From the NCBI RefSeq assembly GCF_007474535.1, contig NZ_VKNW01000015.1:1-64000 (forward strand): 64,000 bases of DNA. Reading direction: 5' to 3'. The notes below the pieces were generated by a model that worked only from the letters and a program-made list of their open reading frames with translations, was not told where the DNA came from and made no database searches. Each line of letters begins with the position of its first letter. Position 1 is the stretch's first letter. The translations under genes were made by a program, and so were the position numbers. This DNA comes from Chryseobacterium echinoideorum (GTDB taxonomy: Bacteria; Bacteroidota; Bacteroidia; Flavobacteriales; Weeksellaceae). Positions 5,719-60,424 of the stretch are shown here, piece by piece.

Positions 5719-5985
5719 ATGCTAAAAAAACTAATTCATAAACTCTTTTTACCATGCAGTACCGCTACCCTGCTCATGGAGAAAAGTATGGCAAAAACCA
5801 TCTCTTCCAAAGAGCAAAAACAACTCAATATTCATTTGAAAATATGCAAGTGGTGCAGATCTTATCAGGAAAAATTAAAAATTCTGGATGATATTCTAAA
5901 AAGAAAAATACAATCCGAAGACCAAACTGATTCAGTTGATATTCAGAAATTTAAAGAAAAAACGATAAAAAATCTCAAAATATAG
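5719..5985 (+). CDS. Zinc-finger anti-sigma factor
   Basis: An 88-residue protein directly behind the ECF sigma gene. It carries the ZAS-type motif H-x3-C-x2-C (HLKICKWC, about residues 49-56) plus an earlier Cys at residue 12, the layout of soluble zinc-binding anti-sigma domains that release sigma when thiols are oxidised. There is no membrane segment, so it is probably cytoplasmic. I chose the ATG at 5719 (MLKKLIHKL) rather than an in-frame ATG inside the sigma gene, because homologous proteins start just before the finger region and the spacing to the sigma stop is then 11 nt. Confidence 0.75.
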   Translation: MLKKLIHKLFLPCSTATLLMEKSMAKTISSKEQKQLNIHLKICKWCRSYQEKLKILDDILKRKIQSEDQTDSVDIQKFKEKTIKNLKI

Positions 5986-6001
5986 AAAAAAATCTGTCAG
6001 G

Positions 6002-6030
6002 ATTTTATTCTTGTTCCGACTATACTTTTG
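6002..6030 (+). promoter_or_regulatory. Candidate ECF-sigma promoter (copy 2), overlapping a TAnnTTTG box
   Basis: ATTTTATTCT, 11 bases, TACTT, as at 5100. TACTTTTG at 6023-6030 also fits the housekeeping -7 consensus, so both sigma factors might use this site. It lies about 33-61 nt before the DUF417 ATG. Confidence 0.4.
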
Positions 6031-6062
6031 AAACTAAAAGTATTTCATTTAAAACTAAAAAA

Positions 6063-6500
6063 ATGAGCGGAACAACATCAGTTAAAAACAAAACGTATCA
6101 AACAGGCTACACTATTTCCTTATTAGGAGCTTCCCTGATCTTGCTTTGGATAGGACTTTTTAAGTTTACCCCTACTGAAGCCAACGCAATAAAACCTTTA
6201 TTGGAAAACCATTTCCTTACTTTTTTCGTTTATGATTATATAAATGTTCAATGGGTATCAAATACTATCGGAACGATAGAAATTATCATTGCAATTGTAT
6301 TATTGTTTAGTGCGAAATTTGCAGTTCTGAAAAGGTTTGCAGGAATCGGAATGATCGCAGTGTTCACAGTAACACTCAGCTATCTCTTCACAACTCCCGG
6401 AATGTGGAAAGTTGTTGACGGATTTCCTGTTACAGATTTTTTCATTCTGAAAGATTTGATGCTCTTGGGATTTGGGTTAATGATTTTAAATGATAAATAA
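6063..6500 (+). CDS. DUF417 / RclC-like inner membrane protein
   Basis: A 145-residue membrane protein with about four hydrophobic segments (residues 15-32, 67-86, 95-115, 128-142). Landmarks of the DUF417 (YkgB/RclC) family are [18 protein letters not shown] at about residues 30-47 and KDLMLLGFG near the end. E. coli RclC belongs to the reactive-chlorine resistance regulon, though its biochemical role is unclear. It overlaps the msrAB start by one base (TAATG), so the two are translationally coupled. With the upstream sigma/anti-sigma pair this suggests an oxidant-response unit. Confidence 0.8.
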
Positions 6501-50400: not shown

Positions 50401-51243
50401 AAGAATCGTTTCTCTGTCTAAGATGATTTCGTTTCTTTCGATAGAAACAACTTCACCGGTATCTTCGTCTACGAAATCTTCAAACCAAGTGTTCAAAACT
50501 CTTGCAGCTAATGTTCTTCCTTCTACTTTTTTAAGTGCTGCTTTAGAAACTTTCACTTCTTCTGCAAGGTCGAAGATCTGAAGAATATCTTTATCAGATT
50601 CAAAACCGATTGCTCTTAATAATGTAGTTAAAGGTAATTTTTTCTTACGGTCGATATACGCGTACATTACGCTGTTGATATCGGTAGTAAATTCCATCCA
50701 AGATCCTTTGAAAGGAATAATTCTTGAATAGTATAATTTGGTTCCGTTTGCGTGATAAGTCTGTCCGAAGAAAACCCCCGGAGATCTGTGTAACTGAGTT
50801 ACAATAACACGCTCCGCTCCATTGATAATAAATGAACCGGACGGAGTCATATAAGGAACAGGACCTAAATAAACATCCTGTACAACCGTCTGAAAATCTT
50901 CATGTTCAGGATCTGTACAATACAGTTTAAGTCTTGCTTTAAGAGGAACGGAATACGTCAAACCTCTTTCCACACATTCGTCAATCGAATAACGCGGAGA
51001 ATCTACCAGATAATCTAAGAATTCCAATACAAATTGGTTTCTGGAATCGGTAATTGGAAAGTTTTCCTGGAAGGTTTTGTGCAAACCTTCTTTCTTTCTG
51101 TCTTCAGGAAGTGTGTCTAACTGGAAAAACTCTCTGAATGACTCTAATTGGATATCCAAGAAGTCAGGAGTAATAATTTTTCCTTTAGCCGAAGAGAAAT
51201 TAATTCTCTCCACTCCCTTAGTTGTTGATGTTGTTTTACTCAT
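47422..51243 (-). CDS. rpoB: DNA-directed RNA polymerase subunit beta
   Basis: Second-largest subunit of RNA polymerase, 1273 residues. The rifampicin-region segment [20 protein letters not shown], the motif [16 protein letters not shown] and the C-terminal [20 protein letters not shown] are intact. Its start codon is preceded by a leader of about 320 nt with its own consensus promoter. Usually it follows rplL directly; here it is separated by about 8 kb of surface-protein genes. Confidence 0.99.
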
Positions 51244-51567
51244 AAAACTTTTAAGAAAGGGTTAAAAAATATTTTGTTTTTATTAAAAAATATCAGAAAA
51301 AGTTTTAAAGAGAAAAGAAGCAGGAGAAAAGACATTTGATGTTTGGCGCTATCAGAAGTGGTCTTTGTTCTTGATTCTTTATTCTAAAAAATCTAATTCT
51401 AACTGCAACACTGGTATATCTTTTCACAGTGTAGTGCAAAATATTTTTATGATATCTTATGGGATTAAAATAACAGAATAAGCATAAAACACGAAAAGCC
51501 CTTTCAATTTACGAAAGAGTTGATTTTCAATATTTTACCGTATTATGTATAATTTAAGCGCCAAAAG
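51244..51567 (-). promoter_or_regulatory. Long untranslated leader of rpoB
   Basis: About 320 nt without a good ORF lie between the rpoB promoter and its start. Leftward the leader contains CACTACACTGTG and, 14 nt on, CAGTGTTGCAG, which can pair to a hairpin (ACACTG/CAGTGT). A smaller CTTTC/GAAAG pair occurs near 51500. Such a leader could carry autoregulation or attenuation, but I see no known riboswitch consensus. Confidence 0.5.
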
Positions 51568-51573
51568 AGACTG

Positions 51574-51605
51574 CAAATTTACATATTTTTTAGTTCTTAA
51601 ACAAA
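51574..51605 (-). promoter_or_regulatory. Consensus promoter for rpoBC
   Basis: Read leftward: TTTG, 20 bases, then TAAATTTG followed by C. This is an excellent match to the Bacteroidetes promoter (TTTG, 17-23 bases, TAnnTTTG). It lies 331 nt upstream of the rpoB ATG and overlaps the terminator region of the upstream surface-protein gene. Confidence 0.75.
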
Positions 51606-51606
51606 A

Positions 51607-51637
51607 AAACCACCTCAAAATGAAGTGGTTAAAATTT
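51607..51637 (-). terminator. Terminator after the 178-residue secreted protein gene
   Basis: Stem AACCACCTCA/TGAAGTGGTT with one mismatch and a short loop, followed leftward by a run of seven T. It ends the surface-protein island just before rpoB transcription starts. Confidence 0.8.
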
Positions 51638-51654
51638 TATCTGCTAAATTTTAT

Positions 51655-52191
51655 TTATGGTTTCCAGAAAGACCAAACCGTCCCATTGAAAACAGCTAAT
51701 TGCTTATTAAAAGTATCATATACTATCATTCCCGGTGCAGGATTGATAATATTGAGATGAGGACTCGCTACCTTCGGTAAAACCATCGCTTTATTAGTGT
51801 CTTCCAAAACTAAAATTCCAGGAGTGGCAGTAAGCGTTCCTATAGCAGATTTAGCAAGAGTATTTTCTGTTGCTGTGTTTTGTATAAGCGCACCATCAAC
51901 ACTTGTTAAAGGATCTACGGTTGTCCCTTGTGTATTTACACTAAGGTCTTTCCATACTGCGGCATTATATTTTACTTTTACTTTTTTATCTGTAAGATCA
52001 TACACCATACTTCCGTTTACTACGCCAGTAACTGCCGCTGTAGAAGTAACCCAAGGTAAAATCATCCCACGGTTTCCTGTTCCAAAATCTAAAGACACCG
52101 ATGGTGATGCAACAGTTGCTTTTCCGATTGCTACCTGAGAAAAAACAGATACGGAAATCAACGCAAATAGTATTGTGAATATATTTTTCAT
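51655..52191 (-). CDS. Secreted protein with two 'VYDT...W' modules
   Basis: A 178-residue exported protein with signal peptide MKNIFTILFALISVSVFSQ. It contains two similar segments: GMILPWV...GSMVYDLTDKKVKVKYN..WKDL at about 40-80 and AMVLPKV...GMIVYDTFNKQLAVFNG..WSFW at about 133-176. The C-terminal end of the 1029-residue neighbour has the same pattern. No enzymatic motif and no obvious type IX secretion C-terminal domain is present. It is probably a cell-surface structural component. Confidence 0.7.
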   Translation of the reverse strand: MKNIFTILFALISVSVFSQVAIGKATVASPSVSLDFGTGNRGMILPWVTSTAAVTGVVNGSMVYDLTDKKVKVKYNAAVWKDLSVNTQGTTVDPLTSVDGALIQNTATENTLAKSAIGTLTATPGILVLEDTNKAMVLPKVASPHLNIINPAPGMIVYDTFNKQLAVFNGTVWSFWKP

Positions 52192-52218
52192 TTTAAATTT
52201 CTTTAATTATTAATCTGT

Positions 52219-55200
52219 TTAATTAGTAGGACATGTCTGTGTATTAAAGCAAGCCCAGCCTGCCGGAGTACCTGTGGTATTTACCTGTAAACAATCTAAT
52301 GTTGTATTGTAAACCATCATTCCTTCTACCAAATCAGCAGCAGGTATTTGTGAAATTTGAGTTGTTGTCAATCTGTTTAGCACAAAACCTTTTGTTTTAG
52401 ATTCCAAAGCAGTCCACGCTCCTTTTCTTACCATCGGCCAGTTATTTCCCGATGCACTGTTACCCGCTCTGTTTAGAGAAGTAATTCCATGAGAAGTATC
52501 TAAAACAGTCCCGGCAGTAACAGCCGGTTTGTAGCAAACAGCTTGAGTATCTGTATCTGTAGCCGTGTTATTAGCAGGAGTAGTTTCTGTAATATTCGAA
52601 GGCGGAGTCACAGTTACGGTATTTACAAGATTTCCATTAAATGAAAAAGGAATACTCACCACTACAGTATAGGTAACGGTTCCACCAACAGGCAAATCAA
52701 CGACATCATTAATTGCCCCCGTCTGCGTTCCGCTAACTGAAGTGGTAGCACCACCTGCAACAGCTGCGGTGTAACTTACATTTGCCGAAGGAATTCCCGA
52801 AGGAACAGGATCAGAAACGGTAGCGCCCAAAACACCGAAAGGACCATTATTACTTGCTACTATTGTATAGGTTGTATTGGTTCCTGAAGAGTAGGTTGTT
52901 ACGCCATCGGTTTTAGTTACCGCAAGATCAGCACTGAAGGCAATAGGAGATGTAACGCAATGCGCCCCATCATTTGCAGAACTGGCAGGAGAACTTGAAA
53001 TCAAAACTCTTTGCCCATTATTAAGATTAAACTGATAAAAGCCGCCTGTATTATTTGCTCCATACATTTCTCCTGTACTTGAGCCAAACATTGCACCAAA
53101 ATTTACCGCTCCAGGTGTTATCCCTATCCCGATAACTTCACCAGTGGAAGGGTTAATTGATACAAGCTGACCATTCCCAGAATTGACTCCATACAAAAGG
53201 CCATTACTGGTTCTAAAAGCAAAATCTGCCAAATTGATACTTGATGACAATGTAATTAATGTAGCGGTCATTGTATTAAGATTTATACGATAGAGCTGGT
53301 TGTTATTAGTATTCGCTTTCACGTAATAATTACCTGAATTATCAATCTCACCTGAATTATAAGTTGCTACAGGAAGCCCTGTCACAGGACCTAGATTAAT
53401 AGAAGTGCCATCCGTATTAATCACTACAACATTATTAGAATTCAAAGTCTCCATTCCATACATACGCCCGTCCAATGGATTTAATCCTATCGCATTATAA
53501 GTTACAGAGGCTGTTCCTATCGGAGGATAGGTAAAAGGATTTGAGCTCGTGTTTACATTGTACAAAGTAGCACTTTGGGAAAGATACATCGAATTAGTAC
53601 ATCCAAAAGCACTCGCACATTGAACATCCTGTAATGCTGAATTTTGTGAAGCTCCTATTCCTTGTCCAACATCACTTCCAATATCTGCAGCACCTGATGG
53701 GTTGACTAAATTGGGAACACCATTAGCATTTACGCCACCATTAGCAACCGTATTGATACTTCCGTTAGCGTTTATTTGTGACAATGTTACATTTTCATCT
53801 CCTTCTATTGCATCAAAACAACCATCTCCGTCAGAATCCAGATCTAAATGATTAGCAATACCATCTCCATCAGTATCAAGCTCTAAAGGAAGATCAGAAC
53901 AAAAATTTGTAAAACGTACACTTTGCTCATTTACAGCTCCTCCTGTAGAGGCTGTATAACCAAAGTAAACCCTACTCGTACCGCCAAAATAACTGGTAAT
54001 AGGATTTGAAGTTGGGAAGGTATAACTTCCTGCCAAGACTCCCCCTACAGTGTAAGAAAGCCTCTTATTGGGAAAGTCCCATGTTATAACAACCGTTCTC
54101 CAAACATTATCTTCAACATTTCCTAAATCTATAGCAGTTGTAAGCAAGTTAGCTCCACTTTGACTTGCAGAAGCCCAAATCTGACCGTGATCATTAGGAA
54201 TATCTCCCACAGAAGTTCCATTATCATAAGTATCCACTTCGAGTACAATACCATTTTGGATTCCTGAAGCACCAAGCCCTCCTCCTGAAGCACCTACTGC
54301 ATCAACTCCATCCGGAGAATTGTGAAAAACTGTGGCAATCCCGTCTGCACCGGCATCACTACTTCCAAAATTAGCTTGATATGTTAATGTAAAGCTTTTA
54401 CTAAAATCTACTTTACCATAAGACCACATCTCCCCCGCTTGAGTATTGGTAGCAGGAGTAAGTCTTACTTGCATTGGGTTAATCTGTGTAGCATTCCCAT
54501 TAAGCTTAAAAATGTCACTCACTGTAGAATTAGGATCTATTCCTTTTTCGGTACAATCATCAATACCGTCATTATCATCGTCAAGATCCAAAGAATTTGC
54601 AATGCCATCTCCATCAGAATCGCACTCAAGCGGTGTAAATACAATATTATCTATTCCTAAATCATTTCCACTTGCCCCATTTCCCTGTAGATTAACAATT
54701 TCTAAATTCACTGTAGAAGTATTAGCCACAAAATTAAGAGTAAGCCTTCTCCAAACATCATCATTAGCCATTCCCAAAGCAGAAGAAGTCGCAGTCGCAA
54801 GAACATTATTACTTGCATCTCTGATATTCAATCGTAGATTAGGTATATCAGCACAGTTGTTACACAACCCTGCCATATCAATTCTAAATCTATACTCCTG
54901 ACCAGGTATTACACCTAGATTACTTATACGATAGATAGCTTGATTGAGCGTTGCACCAGAATTAATATTGATCATAAGATATCTGCCATCTGTGCTACCA
55001 TCAGTAATTGTATTATAGCCTGCATCTCTATTTCCCGTAAGATCCGTCTGTGTATGTTGTGCCGTTTGTGAAAGCGATCTGGTCACCGTATAAGATCCAT
55101 CTGGTGGAGAAGAAGCCACAAAAGTATGACCAATCACATTGGGATCTGTACTTGTTCCTGTTCCTGTTCCGAAAGTATTACTATAGATTGGTGTCGATTC

Positions 55201-55308
55201 CGCTTTGAAATCACATGGAATAGACTGAGCAAAAGCAACACAACCTAATGACGACATTAAAAGTGTTACTGTTTTTTTTATCGTTGTAAAAATATATTTA
55301 CTTGTCAT
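52219..55308 (-). CDS. Large modular surface protein: lectin-like, calcium-type repeats, DUF11
   Basis: A 1029-residue secreted protein. Signal peptide to about residue 28; an N-terminal jelly-roll-like region (30-230); a calcium-binding-type Asp-rich repeat DSDGDGIANSLDLDDDNDG; an L-type lectin-like region (about 260-480, with GIVLEVDTYDNGTSVGDIPN); a second repeat DTDGDGIANHLDLDSDGDG; a beta-propeller-like region resembling DUF6923 (about 575-800); a DUF11 repeat (DLAVTKTDGVTTYSSGTNTT) and a C-terminal module like that of the 178-residue neighbour. This is an adhesin-like design. It is the largest gene in the island and has intact codons throughout. Confidence 0.78.
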   Translation of the reverse strand: MTSKYIFTTIKKTVTLLMSSLGCVAFAQSIPCDFKAESTPIYSNTFGTGTGTSTDPNVIGHTFVASSPPDGSYTVTRSLSQTAQHTQTDLTGNRDAGYNTITDGSTDGRYLMININSGATLNQAIYRISNLGVIPGQEYRFRIDMAGLCNNCADIPNLRLNIRDASNNVLATATSSALGMANDDVWRRLTLNFVANTSTVNLEIVNLQGNGASGNDLGIDNIVFTPLECDSDGDGIANSLDLDDDNDGIDDCTEKGIDPNSTVSDIFKLNGNATQINPMQVRLTPATNTQAGEMWSYGKVDFSKSFTLTYQANFGSSDAGADGIATVFHNSPDGVDAVGASGGGLGASGIQNGIVLEVDTYDNGTSVGDIPNDHGQIWASASQSGANLLTTAIDLGNVEDNVWRTVVITWDFPNKRLSYTVGGVLAGSYTFPTSNPITSYFGGTSRVYFGYTASTGGAVNEQSVRFTNFCSDLPLELDTDGDGIANHLDLDSDGDGCFDAIEGDENVTLSQINANGSINTVANGGVNANGVPNLVNPSGAADIGSDVGQGIGASQNSALQDVQCASAFGCTNSMYLSQSATLYNVNTSSNPFTYPPIGTASVTYNAIGLNPLDGRMYGMETLNSNNVVVINTDGTSINLGPVTGLPVATYNSGEIDNSGNYYVKANTNNNQLYRINLNTMTATLITLSSSINLADFAFRTSNGLLYGVNSGNGQLVSINPSTGEVIGIGITPGAVNFGAMFGSSTGEMYGANNTGGFYQFNLNNGQRVLISSSPASSANDGAHCVTSPIAFSADLAVTKTDGVTTYSSGTNTTYTIVASNNGPFGVLGATVSDPVPSGIPSANVSYTAAVAGGATTSVSGTQTGAINDVVDLPVGGTVTYTVVVSIPFSFNGNLVNTVTVTPPSNITETTPANNTATDTDTQAVCYKPAVTAGTVLDTSHGITSLNRAGNSASGNNWPMVRKGAWTALESKTKGFVLNRLTTTQISQIPAADLVEGMMVYNTTLDCLQVNTTGTPAGWACFNTQTCPTN

Positions 55309-55386
55309 ATGATAATAAATTTTAATACCTTTTTCCTTTTTAGAAAAAGATATAATTAAAAGTTCAAAAATTTAAATGTGTAAAAT

Positions 55387-56028
55387 TTAGCAAGCAGGAG
55401 GTGGTCTTACAGAAAAGACCTCAGAGAAACAATAATCTAAAGATTTGTTATTATAATAATGAAAACGCGAATCATGTAAAAACTCTAATGATATTTTAAT
55501 AATATAATTCTCTGCAATGCAGTTGGTTTTTAAAAGATGATAAGAATAGAAAGTAGTTGCAGAATCTTTAAGAAGACGTGATAAAGAAAGGAAATCTTCA
55601 GATGAAGAACAGCCCCTTAAATGATGAAAATCAAAAGATTCCTTACGTTTTTCGAAGTCATCAATCTTCTTTTTTATTTCTTTAAAAGCGAGCTTATTTC
55701 TTTTTTCTTTTGCTGCTTTTACATTTTTTTTAAGATCGTATTTTTCTTTTACAGTATTGTTTATTCCATTAAATACGACTACATTTTTACCATTTAAGTT
55801 GTACTCTTCATCAATATATCCTGAAACAACTTTTTCATTAAAATACTTATCAGATGAATATATTTTTACATCACCATGAAGTGTAATTTTCTGATGATTA
55901 TCAAAACTTTGCTGTGCACTCAGAAACAGGTTAAGATTAAGAAAAACAGCAAACAAAAAGAACTTCAATTCCGGAAAAGAAATTGTAATATTTTTACGTA
56001 GATTGATATTCAATAAATGTATTTTCAA
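55387..56028 (-). CDS. Secreted protein with C-terminal SVRPPPA motif (RPPPA-2)
   Basis: A 213-residue protein. A hydrophobic signal (FFLFAVFLNLNLFLSAQ) precedes a short beta region (KITLHGDVKIYSSDKYFNEK), a Lys/Glu-rich helix (KKNVKAAKEKRNKLAFKEIK) and a C-terminal domain with ISLEFLHDSRFHYYNNKSL ending FSVRPPPAC. The whole order of regions matches the 238-residue gene at 58615 (which ends HSVRPPPAYAFSC). No known family recognised. A TAnnTTTG box at 56045 supports the ATG at 56028. Confidence 0.7.
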   Translation of the reverse strand: MKIHLLNINLRKNITISFPELKFFLFAVFLNLNLFLSAQQSFDNHQKITLHGDVKIYSSDKYFNEKVVSGYIDEEYNLNGKNVVVFNGINNTVKEKYDLKKNVKAAKEKRNKLAFKEIKKKIDDFEKRKESFDFHHLRGCSSSEDFLSLSRLLKDSATTFYSYHLLKTNCIAENYIIKISLEFLHDSRFHYYNNKSLDYCFSEVFSVRPPPAC

Positions 56029-56044
56029 AAAAAATAGTAAGCCG

Positions 56045-56052
56045 CAAAAATA
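56045..56052 (-). promoter_or_regulatory. Promoter -7 element of RPPPA-2
   Basis: Leftward TATTTTTG followed by C, 17 nt before the ATG at 56028, after the terminator of the preceding gene. Confidence 0.45.
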
Positions 56053-56099
56053 GCAATTATTCCCGTAAAGAATATGAATATTAAATTAATATTTAAAAA

Positions 56100-56131
56100 A
56101 AAATTGCTTTCATCAATAGAAAGCAATTTAT
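56100..56131 (-). terminator. Terminator of the three-gene surface protein operon
   Basis: Perfect stem AAATTGCTTTC/GAAAGCAATTT with a 7-nt loop, followed leftward by a long T run, 24 nt after the stop at 56153. Confidence 0.85.
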
Positions 56132-56152
56132 AATTAGATTATTCGCATCATA

Positions 56153-56911
56153 TTACTGAATCGGCTCCAGTATTTTCAAAGAAGATGACGTTCCTGCCAT
56201 AGAGGAACTCAAAACTGATGTATTCTGCGATTGACCAATCGTTAAAGTGTTTCCTACAGGAACATTTCTTTGGGCACATGCAAATTTGTAAGTATGAGTT
56301 CCTACCCCTAAATTGGGTATAGAAGCGTTCAGTGTAAGTATTCGGTACGAGCCAGATGCACCACTAACGATGCCGGTTCGCGTAAATCTCAATTCGTTAT
56401 CAATATATATTCCACAGCCGAAAGATCCTGTTCCACTTGTTCCGGTAACTTGCGCCACTGTTTGTACAAAGATATTGACAATATTAGATGCCTTTGTAAC
56501 CTTGAATGCAGGTTCGCTTACTCCACTGATTTCTAACCAATCTGATGGGAGTGCCTGATTTTCATTATATGCAACTCCATCTGCCCCTGCTCCATTGAAA
56601 GATACTCCTACGGTTGTTGATTTTAAAGATGATGCTGTAAGAACAAGACCATCAAGATATCCATTAGGTAAATCAAATTTTTTCCATGTAGGATTAGCTG
56701 CTCCGTTAGCAGAAATAAGGTCACCTACTGTACCGGAGTTACCCACTGTAGAGTTTGTACCTCCCAGATTAATTTCATTATTTACGTTCATTGTTCCGTT
56801 AACATCCAACCTGGAACGTGGTACTGTTGTACCAACCCCTACATTTCCAGATTGCGCCAATAAAACACTCAGATTTGTTATCAGAGATAACAATAAAATA
56901 TATTTTTTCAT
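56153..56911 (-). CDS. Secreted surface protein, paralogue 3 of 3
   Basis: A 252-residue protein with signal peptide MKKYILLLSLITNLSVLLAQ followed by the module NVGVGTTVPRSRLDVNGTM and a linker with NLGGTNSTVGNSGTVGDLIS. The C-terminal domain, with FGCGIYIDNELRFTR and THTYKFACAQRN, is shared with the two upstream genes. The paired Cys probably form a disulfide in a beta-sandwich. No catalytic motif seen. It starts 15 nt after the previous gene. Confidence 0.75.
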   Translation of the reverse strand: MKKYILLLSLITNLSVLLAQSGNVGVGTTVPRSRLDVNGTMNVNNEINLGGTNSTVGNSGTVGDLISANGAANPTWKKFDLPNGYLDGLVLTASSLKSTTVGVSFNGAGADGVAYNENQALPSDWLEISGVSEPAFKVTKASNIVNIFVQTVAQVTGTSGTGSFGCGIYIDNELRFTRTGIVSGASGSYRILTLNASIPNLGVGTHTYKFACAQRNVPVGNTLTIGQSQNTSVLSSSMAGTSSSLKILEPIQ

Positions 56912-56925
56912 TGTAATTTTACTTA

Positions 56926-57735
56926 TTAAGGATTATAGACAGGAACCGTATTTCCAGTACTTGGTTTTTCATATGTTTCTACTACCAAAGATGATTTGGT
57001 CATAAAGTCATTTAAATTACCACTTACTGCTTTCCCAACACCTAATGTCCCTGCAAAAGAATTAAAGTTTGCTCTCCTTTTACAAGATACCTTAGCTGTA
57101 TGTGATGCTATTGTCAAGTTGTTGACTGACGCTACCAAATCAAAAGTATAAAACGGATTCGTAGCCGACCCCGGTTGATTTAAAGTATACACACGAATTC
57201 CCTTTAACAAATCATCTACGAAAATGCCACAAGAAAATTCTACAGCTGAATTTATATCGGTTGAATTCATATGTGCTATAGTCTCAAAAGTCAATATCGT
57301 AATATTCTCCTGATTGTCTATTTGAAAATCCTTTTGTAATGCTGAGATCTGAATTCCACCAAAAGAAGCTAATGTCTGATTTAGTGTATGAATTTCAGCA
57401 CCTGTCGTTGTTGAATTAAAAGTATCTCCCAACTTTGTTTCTGCAGCAACATTATTGAAAATTGTATACAAAAAAGGATCAAAGTCAGGTCTTCTGATGA
57501 CTTTCCAAACCGGAGGATTATTAGCTCCTTGCGAAACCAAAACCGACCCCACATCACCCAACAATCCGTTTGTGCTATCAGAGCCTCCCAGATATATCCT
57601 GTTTCTTATATTTAAGTTTCCCTGCACGTCCAATCTTGCTCTTGGTGTTTCAGTATTGATCCCTACTTGGGAAAAAACAAAACTATTAATGAAAACCAAC
57701 GCAACAGCAGCTATATATTTATTAAAAATCATCAT
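56926..57735 (-). CDS. Secreted surface protein, paralogue 2 of 3
   Basis: A 269-residue paralogue with signal MMIFNKYIAAVALVFINSFVFSQ cut before VGINTETPRARLDVQGNL. It then has YLGGSDSTNGLLGDVGSVLV and a C-terminal domain with FSCGIFVDDLLKGIRV and SHTAKVSCKRRAN. Same order of domains as its neighbours, but only about a third identical by eye. The start is 3 nt after the stop of the first gene, so the three are one operon. Confidence 0.75.
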   Translation of the reverse strand: MMIFNKYIAAVALVFINSFVFSQVGINTETPRARLDVQGNLNIRNRIYLGGSDSTNGLLGDVGSVLVSQGANNPPVWKVIRRPDFDPFLYTIFNNVAAETKLGDTFNSTTTGAEIHTLNQTLASFGGIQISALQKDFQIDNQENITILTFETIAHMNSTDINSAVEFSCGIFVDDLLKGIRVYTLNQPGSATNPFYTFDLVASVNNLTIASHTAKVSCKRRANFNSFAGTLGVGKAVSGNLNDFMTKSSLVVETYEKPSTGNTVPVYNP

Positions 57736-57738
57736 TCT

Positions 57739-58545
57739 CTAATATATTATTTTAACTTGTTCACTGACATCAAACTTCAAAATTGATCTCAGCATAAAAT
57801 TGTTTACTCTCTGGGTACCGTCTGTAGTAGTTCTACCAATTGCTAAATGATACCCGGTTGCGCTTGAGGCAATTCTTCTGCAAGCAACTTTTACCGTGTG
57901 AGAACCTGCTGTAAGATTATTTACAGTATAGCTCAATGTAAAAATTGACTGATTTTTTGCCCCTTTACCAGTTATTCCATTAATTTGATCTGATCTGATG
58001 GCTCTCAACTGATCATCTATAAAGATTCCGCATGCAAAACGCACATATGCACCTGTAGTCGTTCCTACGTTAGACATTTCCAGACCTGTCTGAAACAAAA
58101 AGTTAGTCCTGTTCAATGTATTTTTGATCGTAAAACTTGAAGCTAAACCAGGTATTGGACTCCATACAGGACTTGTGGAGTTGATACTTTCCCCAAAAGG
58201 ACTTGTTGCTATACCATCACCTGAACTTGTATTACTGAAATTAATTCCAGTTTCATCGGCAGTAGCATTTGATTCAGTAATTCTATATTCATCCTGCTCA
58301 AAAAAACCAAGCTTGGATGTTTTCCATTCCGGAGTTACATTATCTCCTTGCGAAACAAGTATCTGATTATTTGTTCCCGGTTTACCATCTGTTGTTTTTG
58401 TACCTCCCACTCTTAGTTCATTCCTAAGAGTAATATCTCCATTTACATCAAGCATAGACTGCGGCGTAGCAGTATTTATCCCTACTTGAGCAAACGAAAT
58501 AATACTGGCAAATAATGCCAATATCATTATGCCTTTAAATTTCAT
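57739..58545 (-). CDS. Secreted surface protein, paralogue 1 of 3
   Basis: A 268-residue protein with signal MKFKGIMILALFASIISFAQ, module VGINTATPQSMLDVNGDITL, VGGTKTTDGKPGTNNQILVS and the C-terminal domain with FACGIFIDDQLRAIRS and SHTVKVACRRIAS. It is the first gene of the three-gene operon. The N-terminal LDVNG module is common in Bacteroidetes exported proteins. No T9SS C-terminal signal is obvious. Confidence 0.75.
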   Translation of the reverse strand: MKFKGIMILALFASIISFAQVGINTATPQSMLDVNGDITLRNELRVGGTKTTDGKPGTNNQILVSQGDNVTPEWKTSKLGFFEQDEYRITESNATADETGINFSNTSSGDGIATSPFGESINSTSPVWSPIPGLASSFTIKNTLNRTNFLFQTGLEMSNVGTTTGAYVRFACGIFIDDQLRAIRSDQINGITGKGAKNQSIFTLSYTVNNLTAGSHTVKVACRRIASSATGYHLAIGRTTTDGTQRVNNFMLRSILKFDVSEQVKIIY

Positions 58546-58614
58546 AGTATTTAAATTAATTGATAAATAAAAAATTGAATTGTTTATTCAGATTGCATTA
58601 TATTCAGATTGTTT

Positions 58615-59331
58615 TTAACAACTGAATGCATAAGCAGGGGGAGGTCTTACAGAATGAAATGGAGTAAAATGATAAGTGAAGCATACATTTTTATACAATG
58701 TATACTTTTGGTTGTAAACAAACTCTAAACTGATGTTTGTTTTCTCGTTGTATTTTAGAAAATTGTACGAAGATGTCTGCTGAACAAAGGAAGTATTTAC
58801 ATTTCTATCCGTATTCAGATGCTCGTCAGAAGGTATATTATTAAACCTGTCATTAATAATTTTCCTCTTTTTAAGATCACTTTTAATTTTAGCTAAAAGT
58901 TTTTTATCCGATTTAGTCTTGGCAGACCTTTCTTTATGAAGGTCTTTTTCAATAATTACTTTACTCGGCTGTACTCCATTAACAGTAAGTTTTGTTTTGT
59001 CAGCAGAGATTGTAAGATTGACTTCTGACTTATTTAATGTTACAGTCTTATCAGTAACCTGTTTAATAAATCCTGGATCAGCAGAATATAAAAAAGCTCC
59101 TTCAGAAACGTATATCTGAGCTTGTTGAGGCTCATCTACATTTTGAGCAAATATGCTGTTGAAGAAAGAAACAAATAACAATAAAAATAAAGACAAAGAT
59201 TTTACATTCTTGTCATTCCAATATTTATTTGACTTCTTGTCTAAAAGAGCAGCTGTTATAATATTTATGTTTTTGCAAAGGTACGAAACTATACCCAAAG
59301 TATTACAGCACAAATGTTTGACAAAATTCAT
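58615..59331 (-). CDS. Secreted protein with C-terminal SVRPPPA motif (RPPPA-1)
   Basis: The open frame gives 238 residues. A hydrophobic signal LSLFLLLFVSFFNSIFAQ begins only at about residue 45. It is followed by IYVSEGAFLYSADPGFIKQV, a Lys-rich helix and ISLEFVYNQKYTLYKN, ending HSVRPPPAYAFSC. It is clearly paralogous to the gene at 55387. The start is uncertain. The ATG at 59331 leaves a long pre-signal stretch, and a promoter-like TACCTTTG at 59276-59283 falls inside it, but no in-frame ATG follows before the signal. Confidence 0.65.
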   Translation of the reverse strand: MNFVKHLCCNTLGIVSYLCKNINIITAALLDKKSNKYWNDKNVKSLSLFLLLFVSFFNSIFAQNVDEPQQAQIYVSEGAFLYSADPGFIKQVTDKTVTLNKSEVNLTISADKTKLTVNGVQPSKVIIEKDLHKERSAKTKSDKKLLAKIKSDLKKRKIINDRFNNIPSDEHLNTDRNVNTSFVQQTSSYNFLKYNEKTNISLEFVYNQKYTLYKNVCFTYHFTPFHSVRPPPAYAFSC

Positions 59332-59372
59332 ATTATCAATGATAATTATACTGTATTAAATATGTATTAAAT

Positions 59373-59401
59373 AAAAAAGCTGCTCCGGGTAGGAACAGCT
59401 T
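59373..59401 (-). terminator. Terminator directly after rplL
   Basis: AGCTGTTCC and GGAGCAGCT form a stem with one mismatch, followed by TTTTTT leftward, 21 nt after the rplL stop. Its presence indicates that transcription from the ribosomal genes does not simply run on to rpoBC. Confidence 0.8.
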
Positions 59402-59421
59402 CAAATATTGTAAAAAATGAA

Positions 59422-59790
59422 TTACTTCAATTCTACTTCAGCACCAGCTTCTTCTAATTGCTTCTTAAGAGCTTCAGCTTCGTCTTTAGAGATACCAGTT
59501 TTGATCGGAGCAGGAGCACCATCTACGATATCTTTAGCTTCTTTAAGACCAGCACCAGTTAAATCTTTTACTAATTTAACGATTGCTAATTTAGAAGCAC
59601 CTGCAGACTTAAGAATTACGTCGAATTCAGTTTTTTCTTCAGCAGCTTCACCTGCACCACCTGCAGCCATAACTACAGCAGCAGCAGCTGGCTCAATTCC
59701 GTACTCATCCTTAAGGATAGCAGCTAATTCATTTACGTCTTTTACTGTTAAGTTTACTAGCGTTTCAGCTAAATTTTTTAAATCTGACAT
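59422..59790 (-). CDS. rplL: 50S ribosomal protein L7/L12 (bL12)
   Basis: Stalk protein that recruits translation factors. 122 residues: N-terminal dimerisation helices ([20 protein letters not shown]), Ala-rich hinge ([18 protein letters not shown]) and the C-terminal factor-binding domain ([36 protein letters not shown]). Normal length and intact. Downstream there is an intrinsic terminator instead of rpoB. Confidence 0.98.
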
Positions 59791-59836
59791 TGTTGTAATG
59801 TTTTTGTTGATTATTTATTTAATTTTTTGAGTGTAA

Positions 59837-60424
59837 TTATTCAGCAGCTGGAGCATCTCCTTCTTCAGCTGGAGTTTCCGGAGTTTCAGTAGCCGGAGCT
59901 TCTTCTACAGCAGGTGCAGCTTCTTCAGCCTTAGCTTCCGCTGTTTCAGATTTATTTTGAAGAGCAGAAACAACTCTTTGAATTGGAGACTGAAGTAATC
60001 CGATGATTTCACCGATCATTTCTTCTCTAGACTTGATGCTTACCAAAGTATCAAGATTGTTGTCACCAACATAGAAAGTTTCTTGTACAAAAGCAGACTT
60101 TAATGCCGGCTTCTCTTCTTTTTTTCTAAAGTCTTTGATTAATTTTGCAGGAGCATTAGCTGTTTCAGCAATCATTAATGCAGAGTTACCTTTGAAAGTC
60201 TGGAACATTTCAGAGTAATCTACTCCTTCAATCTGCTCCATTGCTTTTTGCAAAAGTGTATTTTTCACCACTTTTACTTTGATATTTTGTTTGAAAGCCT
60301 GTCTTCTGAAATCAGAAGATTTAGCAGCGTTCAAACCGTCTAGATCTGCTACGTAAACTACTTTAGCATCCTGAAGCAAATCTTTGATCTCTTGTATTGC
60401 TACAACTTTTTGGTCTTTTGTCAT
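59837..60424 (-). CDS. rplJ: 50S ribosomal protein L10 (uL10)
   Basis: Anchors L7/L12 to 23S rRNA. 195 residues; typical sequence YVADLDGLNAAKSSDFRRQA and FKGNSALMIAETANAPAKL. The C-terminal 25 residues or so are an Ala/Glu/Pro tail after the L12-binding helix, an addition like that on S16. 46 nt lie between this gene and rplL. Confidence 0.97.
   Translation of the reverse strand: MTKDQKVVAIQEIKDLLQDAKVVYVADLDGLNAAKSSDFRRQAFKQNIKVKVVKNTLLQKAMEQIEGVDYSEMFQTFKGNSALMIAETANAPAKLIKDFRKKEEKPALKSAFVQETFYVGDNNLDTLVSIKSREEMIGEIIGLLQSPIQRVVSALQNKSETAEAKAEEAAPAVEEAPATETPETPAEEGDAPAAE

Follow-up and report, generated by a model that had tools for sequence, protein, structure and literature searches.

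Exported leader proteins with R-x-P-P near the C terminus, i.e., SecM (of secM-secA), ApdA, ApdP and the RQH family, are encoded 5' of their targets and have a spacer of more than 100 residues and few residues after the motif (PMC10987492, PMC12992588). CutF of Rhodobacter capsulatus is a Sec-exported nascent protein with a C-terminal proline-rich stall motif; the start region of the next gene, cutO, is shielded there by an intergenic stem-loop, which stalling opens (PMC9973294). The exported leader CruR of Bordetella pertussis, encoded 5' of the outer-membrane protein gene bfrG, carries RAPP at three residues from its C-terminal end (PMC9426467). Here we describe two exported proteins, leaders A and B, encoded in a window of 64,000 nucleotides (nt) of Chryseobacterium echinoideorum (contig NZ_VKNW01000015.1, positions 1 to 64,000). 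They belong to a genuine family, unnamed in the libraries searched, whose members end in RPPP a few residues before the C terminus and which is best read as nascent-chain arrest leaders combined with a co-varying translational attenuator.

CutF is a DUF2946 protein with a copper-binding motif and a multicopper oxidase as target (PMC9973294); we saw no sequence relation to it, and the RPPP leaders differ further in their stem arm directly behind RPPP, their surface-protein targets and their phylum, Bacteroidota. The stall of CruR, also of the DUF2946 family, is relieved by copper, and the system works through Rho termination across a 162-nt gap (PMC9426467). DUF2946 was absent among the 25 of 32 matched families listed for 48 members of our family, and for the two window proteins. 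Compared with SecM and the RAPP-like peptides, the motif here is RPPP, the targets are not secA, secDF or yidC, and arrest is proposed. A HisL-lux reporter offers a further likeness, as RPPP in its leader raises expression of the following genes via ribosome pausing, but it is an engineered transcriptional attenuator in E. coli, of which the Chryseobacterium leaders would be a natural counterpart (PMC8129111). A 2024 screen upstream of secA, secDF and yidC found Bacteroidota clusters ending in NSP or NAP, and in the passages covered RPPP comes up a single time, as one of the motifs looked for in the proteomes of E. coli and B. subtilis (PMC10987492). Among the matches listed from the open-access literature, none described RPPP leaders of Chryseobacterium surface operons.

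The four criteria for Sec/YidC-related arrest peptides, as given in PMC10987492, can be applied to this family. The genes are small upstream open reading frames (ORFs) of no assigned function, but the next genes encode surface proteins and not SecA, SecDF or YidC (i). An N-terminal signal is present in 78 of 81 members, according to a simple hydrophobic-stretch-plus-cleavage search (ii), the C-terminal sequence is conserved among homologues (iii), and a median of 174 residues (range 142-327, n = 78) lies between signal and conserved end, beyond the 30 asked for (iv). R-P-P-P falls outside the RAPP-like class (R-A/G-P-P or R-A-G-P core); proline at position 2 is reported to be partly permissive in ApdA and ApdP, where an Ala to Pro change in RAPP kept part of the arrest (PMC12992588).

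A family of exported proteins with a conserved RPPP end

The original prediction of two paralogous exported proteins with an SVRPPPA tail holds for both ORFs, listed here with lengths in amino acids (aa):

58615..59331, minus strand: leader gene A, exported, 238 aa, end SVRPPP-AYAFSC (...HSVRPPPAYAFSC), 5' of three LDVNG-type genes
58636..58647, minus strand: RPPP codons of leader A, proposed stall site (DNA pattern match 58637-58653; position from translation)
55387..56028, minus strand: leader gene B, exported, 213 aa, TTG start, end SVRPPP-AC (...FSVRPPPAC), 5' of a 1029-aa lectin-type gene
55396..55407, minus strand: RPPP codons of leader B, proposed stall site (DNA pattern match 55397-55413; position from translation)

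With the 238-aa protein as query, the 213-aa gene was matched at E = 2.8e-6 and 35% identity, confirming the paralogy, and full-length relatives were found in several same-genus genomes. Profile A1 (11 rows) had matches in 85 of 296 genomes of the family Weeksellaceae at E <= 0.01, the weak end of which is probably noise, and profile A2 (48 diverse rows, selected for having RPPP) in 36 of 173 genus genomes at E <= 1e-10. An order-wide profile search, blind to leaders with unrelated N-termini, gave matches in 16 of 395 genomes at E <= 0.001; all strong ones were within the window's family, and four weak ones came from other genera or families. The 18 loci with names are from Chryseobacterium for the most part, three being metagenome-assembled genomes.

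Within the fetched loci (L numbers), 95 distinct ORFs match profile A1. In 82 of them the match extends to profile position 220 or beyond, and all 82 have RPPP near the end; with the weak row L165 included, RPPP lies within the last 25 residues of 83 ORFs. The other 12 comprise two cut at locus ends, seven tail-less paralogues and three weak, apparently unrelated matches. Our working set is the 81 members left after dropping L161 and L165. Before the Arg, V is found in 70, S in 72 and F or Y in 72 of the 83 ORFs. In A2, with its rows selected for RPPP, the four RPPP columns are the only invariant ones, while the Q of the A-Q cleavage site and the S of IYS are kept in at least 90% of the 48 rows. 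The shared YSxDxxF and ISLEF stretches pointed out earlier are also present, yet conserved less than RPPP. The proposed common end of SVRPPPA plus a terminal Cys stands as far as RPPP goes, but A after PPP and the Cys are not family traits: 2-8 residues follow RPPP in the 81 members, with ends such as VLG, IKV, SFI, DLI and QI.

RPPP is written with six Arg codons and all four Pro codons, therefore it is the amino acids that are kept and not the bases; the bases after RPPP behave in the opposite manner, i.e., bases matter there rather than amino acids. Among 421 other ORFs of the same loci (stop to stop, at least 150 aa) RPPP occurs in three, each time within the last 18 residues, and these are leaders by position and shape that were missed by the dedupe or the profile cut-off. 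As RPPP outside the set is found only in such leaders, the SVRPPP tail is beyond chance. The view of the tail as a conserved, functional element of the family is borne out. A first xVRPPP DNA pattern matched only the two window genes (controls 1 and 2) in their own genome; the pattern required a T-initial codon two before the Arg, hence a third leader, L181, was missed.

That the family lacks a name, as had been suspected, agrees with Pfam and NCBIfam scans and a PDB profile search, none of which supplied one. Weak Pfam matches to Cas_Csy4 (E 0.079) and PheRS_DBD2 (E 0.6) and a single PDB match at E 0.37 were judged chance. Rfam gave no match up to E 1 in window 51000-60000, and the predicted structure of leader B (48 sequences; mean predicted local distance difference test score 67.2, predicted template modelling score 0.34) was too poor for a fold search.

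Leaders precede surface-protein genes

A co-directional ORF (ATG start, 100 aa or more, within 400 nt) lies behind 79 of the 81 members at a median gap of 73 nt (quartiles 64.5 and 81.5), and 75 of these 79 downstream ORFs have a hydrophobic N-terminal stretch by a crude signal test (at least 7 of AVLIFMWC among 10 residues, within the first 45). Read by eye, many of the large downstream proteins end in ...CLKIYDGTxWxCFxxQTCP, with a small SLEFG...WSFWKP protein encoded next, and other downstream genes encode LDVNG proteins. The small surface protein is far commoner than the leader (152 of 197 genomes of the family); 16 of its regions contained an RPPP leader in four cases (L181, L189, L192 and L195) and variants in two (L182 and L190), with no leader seen in the remaining 10. 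The leader is an optional control unit. By a simple search, a promoter-like TTG-N17-24-TAnnTTTG is placed near the ORF opening in 23 of 81 members versus 5.3 in shuffles.

The leader end pairs with the next start

When the gaps were folded, the codons that follow RPPP paired with bases overlapping the next ATG or immediately 5' of it, in many cases enclosing an inner hairpin. This pairing was noticed in the folds and tested afterwards on the same data, with 73 members of gap <= 130 nt and segments of 18 nt from the third Pro codon versus ATG-30..+18. Mean duplex energy was -7.28 compared with -4.69 (standard deviation 0.23) for permuted partners (z -11.4, 0/20000, n = 73); representatives with tail identity <= 55% (n = 44) still gave z -7.0 (0/20000), and the control, 36 further co-directional pairs from these loci, z +0.8. 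With longer segments, a previous version of the test yielded -10.21 versus -7.29 (0/20000); measured against mispairings, 16 of 73 members fell within the best 5% and 33 within the best 10%. When the window of comparison was slid along the leader the signal peaked at RPPP (offset -6, z -11.0; offset 0, z -10.7); it was -3.7 at -12, an overlapping position, between -2.1 and +2.0 over -150 to -18, and -3.7 at +30, where short gaps let the windows reach the start region.

Of the 73 members, 43 have an uninterrupted Watson-Crick helix of at least 7 base pairs, where 20.1 would be expected and none of 5000 permutations exceeded 34; such members have 32 different arms, e.g., GTATTAG/CTAATAC, TATTAGCTTA/TAAGCTAATA, AATAGCGTA/TACGCTATT and, over the ATG, TTTTTAGTC/GACTAAAAA. 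The 5' arm starts 0 to +11 after PPP (median +3). The signal is present in the own genus alone (z -9.0, n = 57) and weaker in genera g28 and g45 alone (z -3.4, 7/20000, n = 16). A hold-out set of later members, found by profile or context, from named loci (one case) or set aside (L039, L160), comprised 21 new members, and the 18 with gap <= 130 nt gave z -4.8 (0/20000); the others were L207, without a next ORF, and L209 and L210, with long gaps, and L200-L202 had been skipped as sharing their last 40 residues with L119. The independence of this set is partial, owing to close relatives of some members in the first set. The third leader of the own genome, L181 (...HTVRPPPFYYSSIRA), 65 nt before a 1713-aa gene, ranks 3/74 and 1/74, and leaders placed like those of the window in L040 and L095, each 5' of an LDVNG gene, have ranks of 0.069 and 0.042. 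For leader B we propose the following stem, weak when taken alone (rank 0.164):

55381..55389, minus strand: 5' arm TAAATTTTA, beginning at the stop codon
55316..55324, minus strand: 3' arm TAAAATTTA, 8-16 nt before the ATG at 55308

Removing 11 bases at the 5' arm increased the computed openness of the next start in 51 of 73 members, by more than 0.1 in 24 (control 3/36), which is supportive, if modest, evidence for arm blocking.

Proposed mechanism and alternatives

As far as sequences can tell, there is a family with an RPPP end, a leader position and a co-varying pairing behind it, and we think it likely that both window genes are regulatory leaders of surface-protein operons in which an RPPP stall acts on a translational attenuator like that of CutF-cutO or SecM-secA. 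The last residues of the exported leader, (F/Y/H)-S-V-R-P-P-P, would act inside the ribosome while the chain is unfinished, stalling it with the prolines at the catalytic centre. A ribosome stalled at RPPP would shield some ten further bases, at the position of the 5' arm. This arm would be formed by the mRNA immediately after RPPP, with the 3' arm covering the start region of the next gene. Once the leader is finished and the ribosome gone, the stem would form and the next gene would be poorly translated; a stall at RPPP would keep the 5' arm open beneath the footprint, leaving the start free and allowing the surface protein to be made.

Stalling, the direction of control and the signal are inferred, the stall being taken as the on state because of the pairing and of the SecM and CutF precedents. 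Most likely the N-terminal part, exported while the chain is still nascent, would read the signal, which could be that export itself, as in SecM, or a cue from outside the cytoplasm, as in CutF; we favour the latter because the targets are cargo and not Sec parts. In RAPP peptides the third and fourth codons occupy the P and A sites at the stall (PMC12992588), and in E. coli with EF-P, RPPP pauses ribosomes strongly, to a degree comparable to a stop codon in a leader reporter and alike with CCG, CCA and CCU (PMC8129111). This suits the free choice of Pro codons in the leaders.

Several observations weigh against this reading. When RAPP-like sequences from proteins of E. coli and B. subtilis were tested, most gave no arrest, so sequence context matters (PMC10987492), and a leader role leaves the conserved N-terminal segment and the tail-less paralogues unaccounted for. 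Six members with gaps above 130 nt and two without a next ORF lie outside the pairing test, and no clear pairing was seen in the RPPP leaders of genera g30 and g40 (L189, L192, L195, L160) or in the RYPP variant L190. The window leaders themselves pair weakly when taken singly (ranks 0.164 for B and 0.397 for A). The mean gain in start openness is small, only 0.48 to 0.55, and blocking the 5' arm barely shifts it for the window leaders (0.54 to 0.57; 0.62 to 0.61).

SVRPPP might also work in the finished secreted protein, as the original prediction had it, i.e., in sorting, anchoring, processing or binding, for example by docking into a co-encoded surface protein. The proteins are exported and stand beside surface proteins, RPPP is selected as amino acids, and the mature N-terminal segment is conserved too, but the distance to the C terminus varies, the end residues are unconserved as protein yet fit the RNA pairing, and C-terminal sorting domains (type IX secretion and the like) had no match in the listed Pfam and NCBIfam scan results. 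Nascent-chain arrest fits better because of this variable tail length, the unconserved Cys (which also led us to reject it as an anchor), the leader position and the pairing behind RPPP, and we consider a mature tail unlikely. The role of the pairing would change if RPPP slows or stalls the ribosome and control of the next gene is transcriptional through Rho access, with the stem serving mRNA stability or insulation. CruR, with its RAPP three residues before the end, acts through Rho (PMC9426467), and some leaders (g30, g40) carry RPPP without pairing; however, the pairing takes in the next start region and begins at the stall site, as start-site masking predicts, which makes Rho control quite improbable. 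Finally, the complementarity could be an artefact of AT-rich sequence and relatedness, given that the arms are AT-rich, many members are related, the g28 and g45 signal is weaker and the pairing was noticed before being tested on the same data. Composition is preserved under partner permutation, though, and the results for representatives, other gene pairs and the hold-out set all speak against chance complementarity, which we regard as very improbable.

If nascent-chain arrest is correct, these leaders would show the strong pauser RPPP put to regulatory use in nature, by a family that governs Bacteroidota surface proteins rather than secretion machinery or metal genes. They would supply some eighty test cases with differing stems, show that RNA pairing rather than protein function can fix the final codons of a protein, and raise the question of what exported nascent chains respond to. 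They would also advise caution, as a motif conserved at the C terminus of a secreted protein may be addressed to the ribosome. A broader idea, plausible though somewhat short of probable, is that Weeksellaceae possess a dedicated, multiplying class of nascent-chain sensors, in which the N-terminal part reads an extracytoplasmic cue, RPPP holds the ribosome and a leader-specific, co-evolving stem switches one of the several surface-protein operons in each genome, which would give Bacteroidota a cis-acting layer in the choice of surface protein.

Genomic context and related genes

The genes rplL and rpoB are neighbours as a rule. In the window, the order read by eye from translations is tuf, secE, nusG, rplK, rplA, rplJ, rplL, block, rpoB, rpoC, with a surface-protein block of about 8 kb (51244-59421) inserted between rplL and rpoB; the same site in same-genus genomes has related yet differing blocks (L040-L046). 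A simple search located rplL within 1.5 kb upstream of 34 of the 81 members (45 no, two too short). Leaders A and B flank three LDVNG-type genes (56153-58545), as originally described:

57739..58545, minus strand: LDVNG-type secreted protein 1, 69 nt 3' of leader A
56926..57735, minus strand: LDVNG-type secreted protein 2
56153..56911, minus strand: LDVNG-type secreted protein 3
52219..55308, minus strand: 1029-aa surface protein (L-type lectin domain, DUF6923, DUF11), proposed target, 78 nt 3' of leader B
51655..52191, minus strand: 178-aa SLDFG...WSFWKP protein, second gene 3' of leader B

For both leaders, reading by eye places a TAnnTTTG-like promoter site at the listed start or internal to it (minus strand, about 59262-59285 and 56030-56050), so the true starts, above all that of the 238-aa protein, may lie further in; the stricter TTG-N17-24-TAnnTTTG search printed no site for the window.

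The tail-less paralogues (112-164 aa) have the exported IYSxDxxFN segment and a Lys-rich part without RPPP, and this segment may have a role of its own. In L105, L120 and L126 they stand directly before an RPPP leader. They are located as follows:

L105:977-1373: tail-less paralogue
L163:2436-2856: tail-less paralogue
L120, L126, L039, L164 and L167, minus strand: tail-less paralogue ORFs

One genome (G625) has three leader copies with identical match scores (L200, L201 and L202), i.e., a recent duplication or assembly copies. On contig C1 of the own genome, a leader-like exported ORF (L182:5422-6018) ends in HSVRPPTRLF; next come a regulator-like ORF of 112 aa and a surface protein of 1080 aa. 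This RPPT variant showed no clear pairing and is perhaps a decayed or altered leader. A 141-aa ORF in L190 (minus strand, 5868-6293) is a possible RYPP variant with the end NRYPPFITV, and a 1509-aa surface protein follows after 54 nt. Near leader or surface-protein operons we repeatedly noticed proteins of about 490 aa whose C-terminal end resembles a helix-turn-helix:

L181:3513-4955: protein of about 490 aa
L182:3724-5196: protein of about 490 aa
L035:13092-14588: protein of about 490 aa

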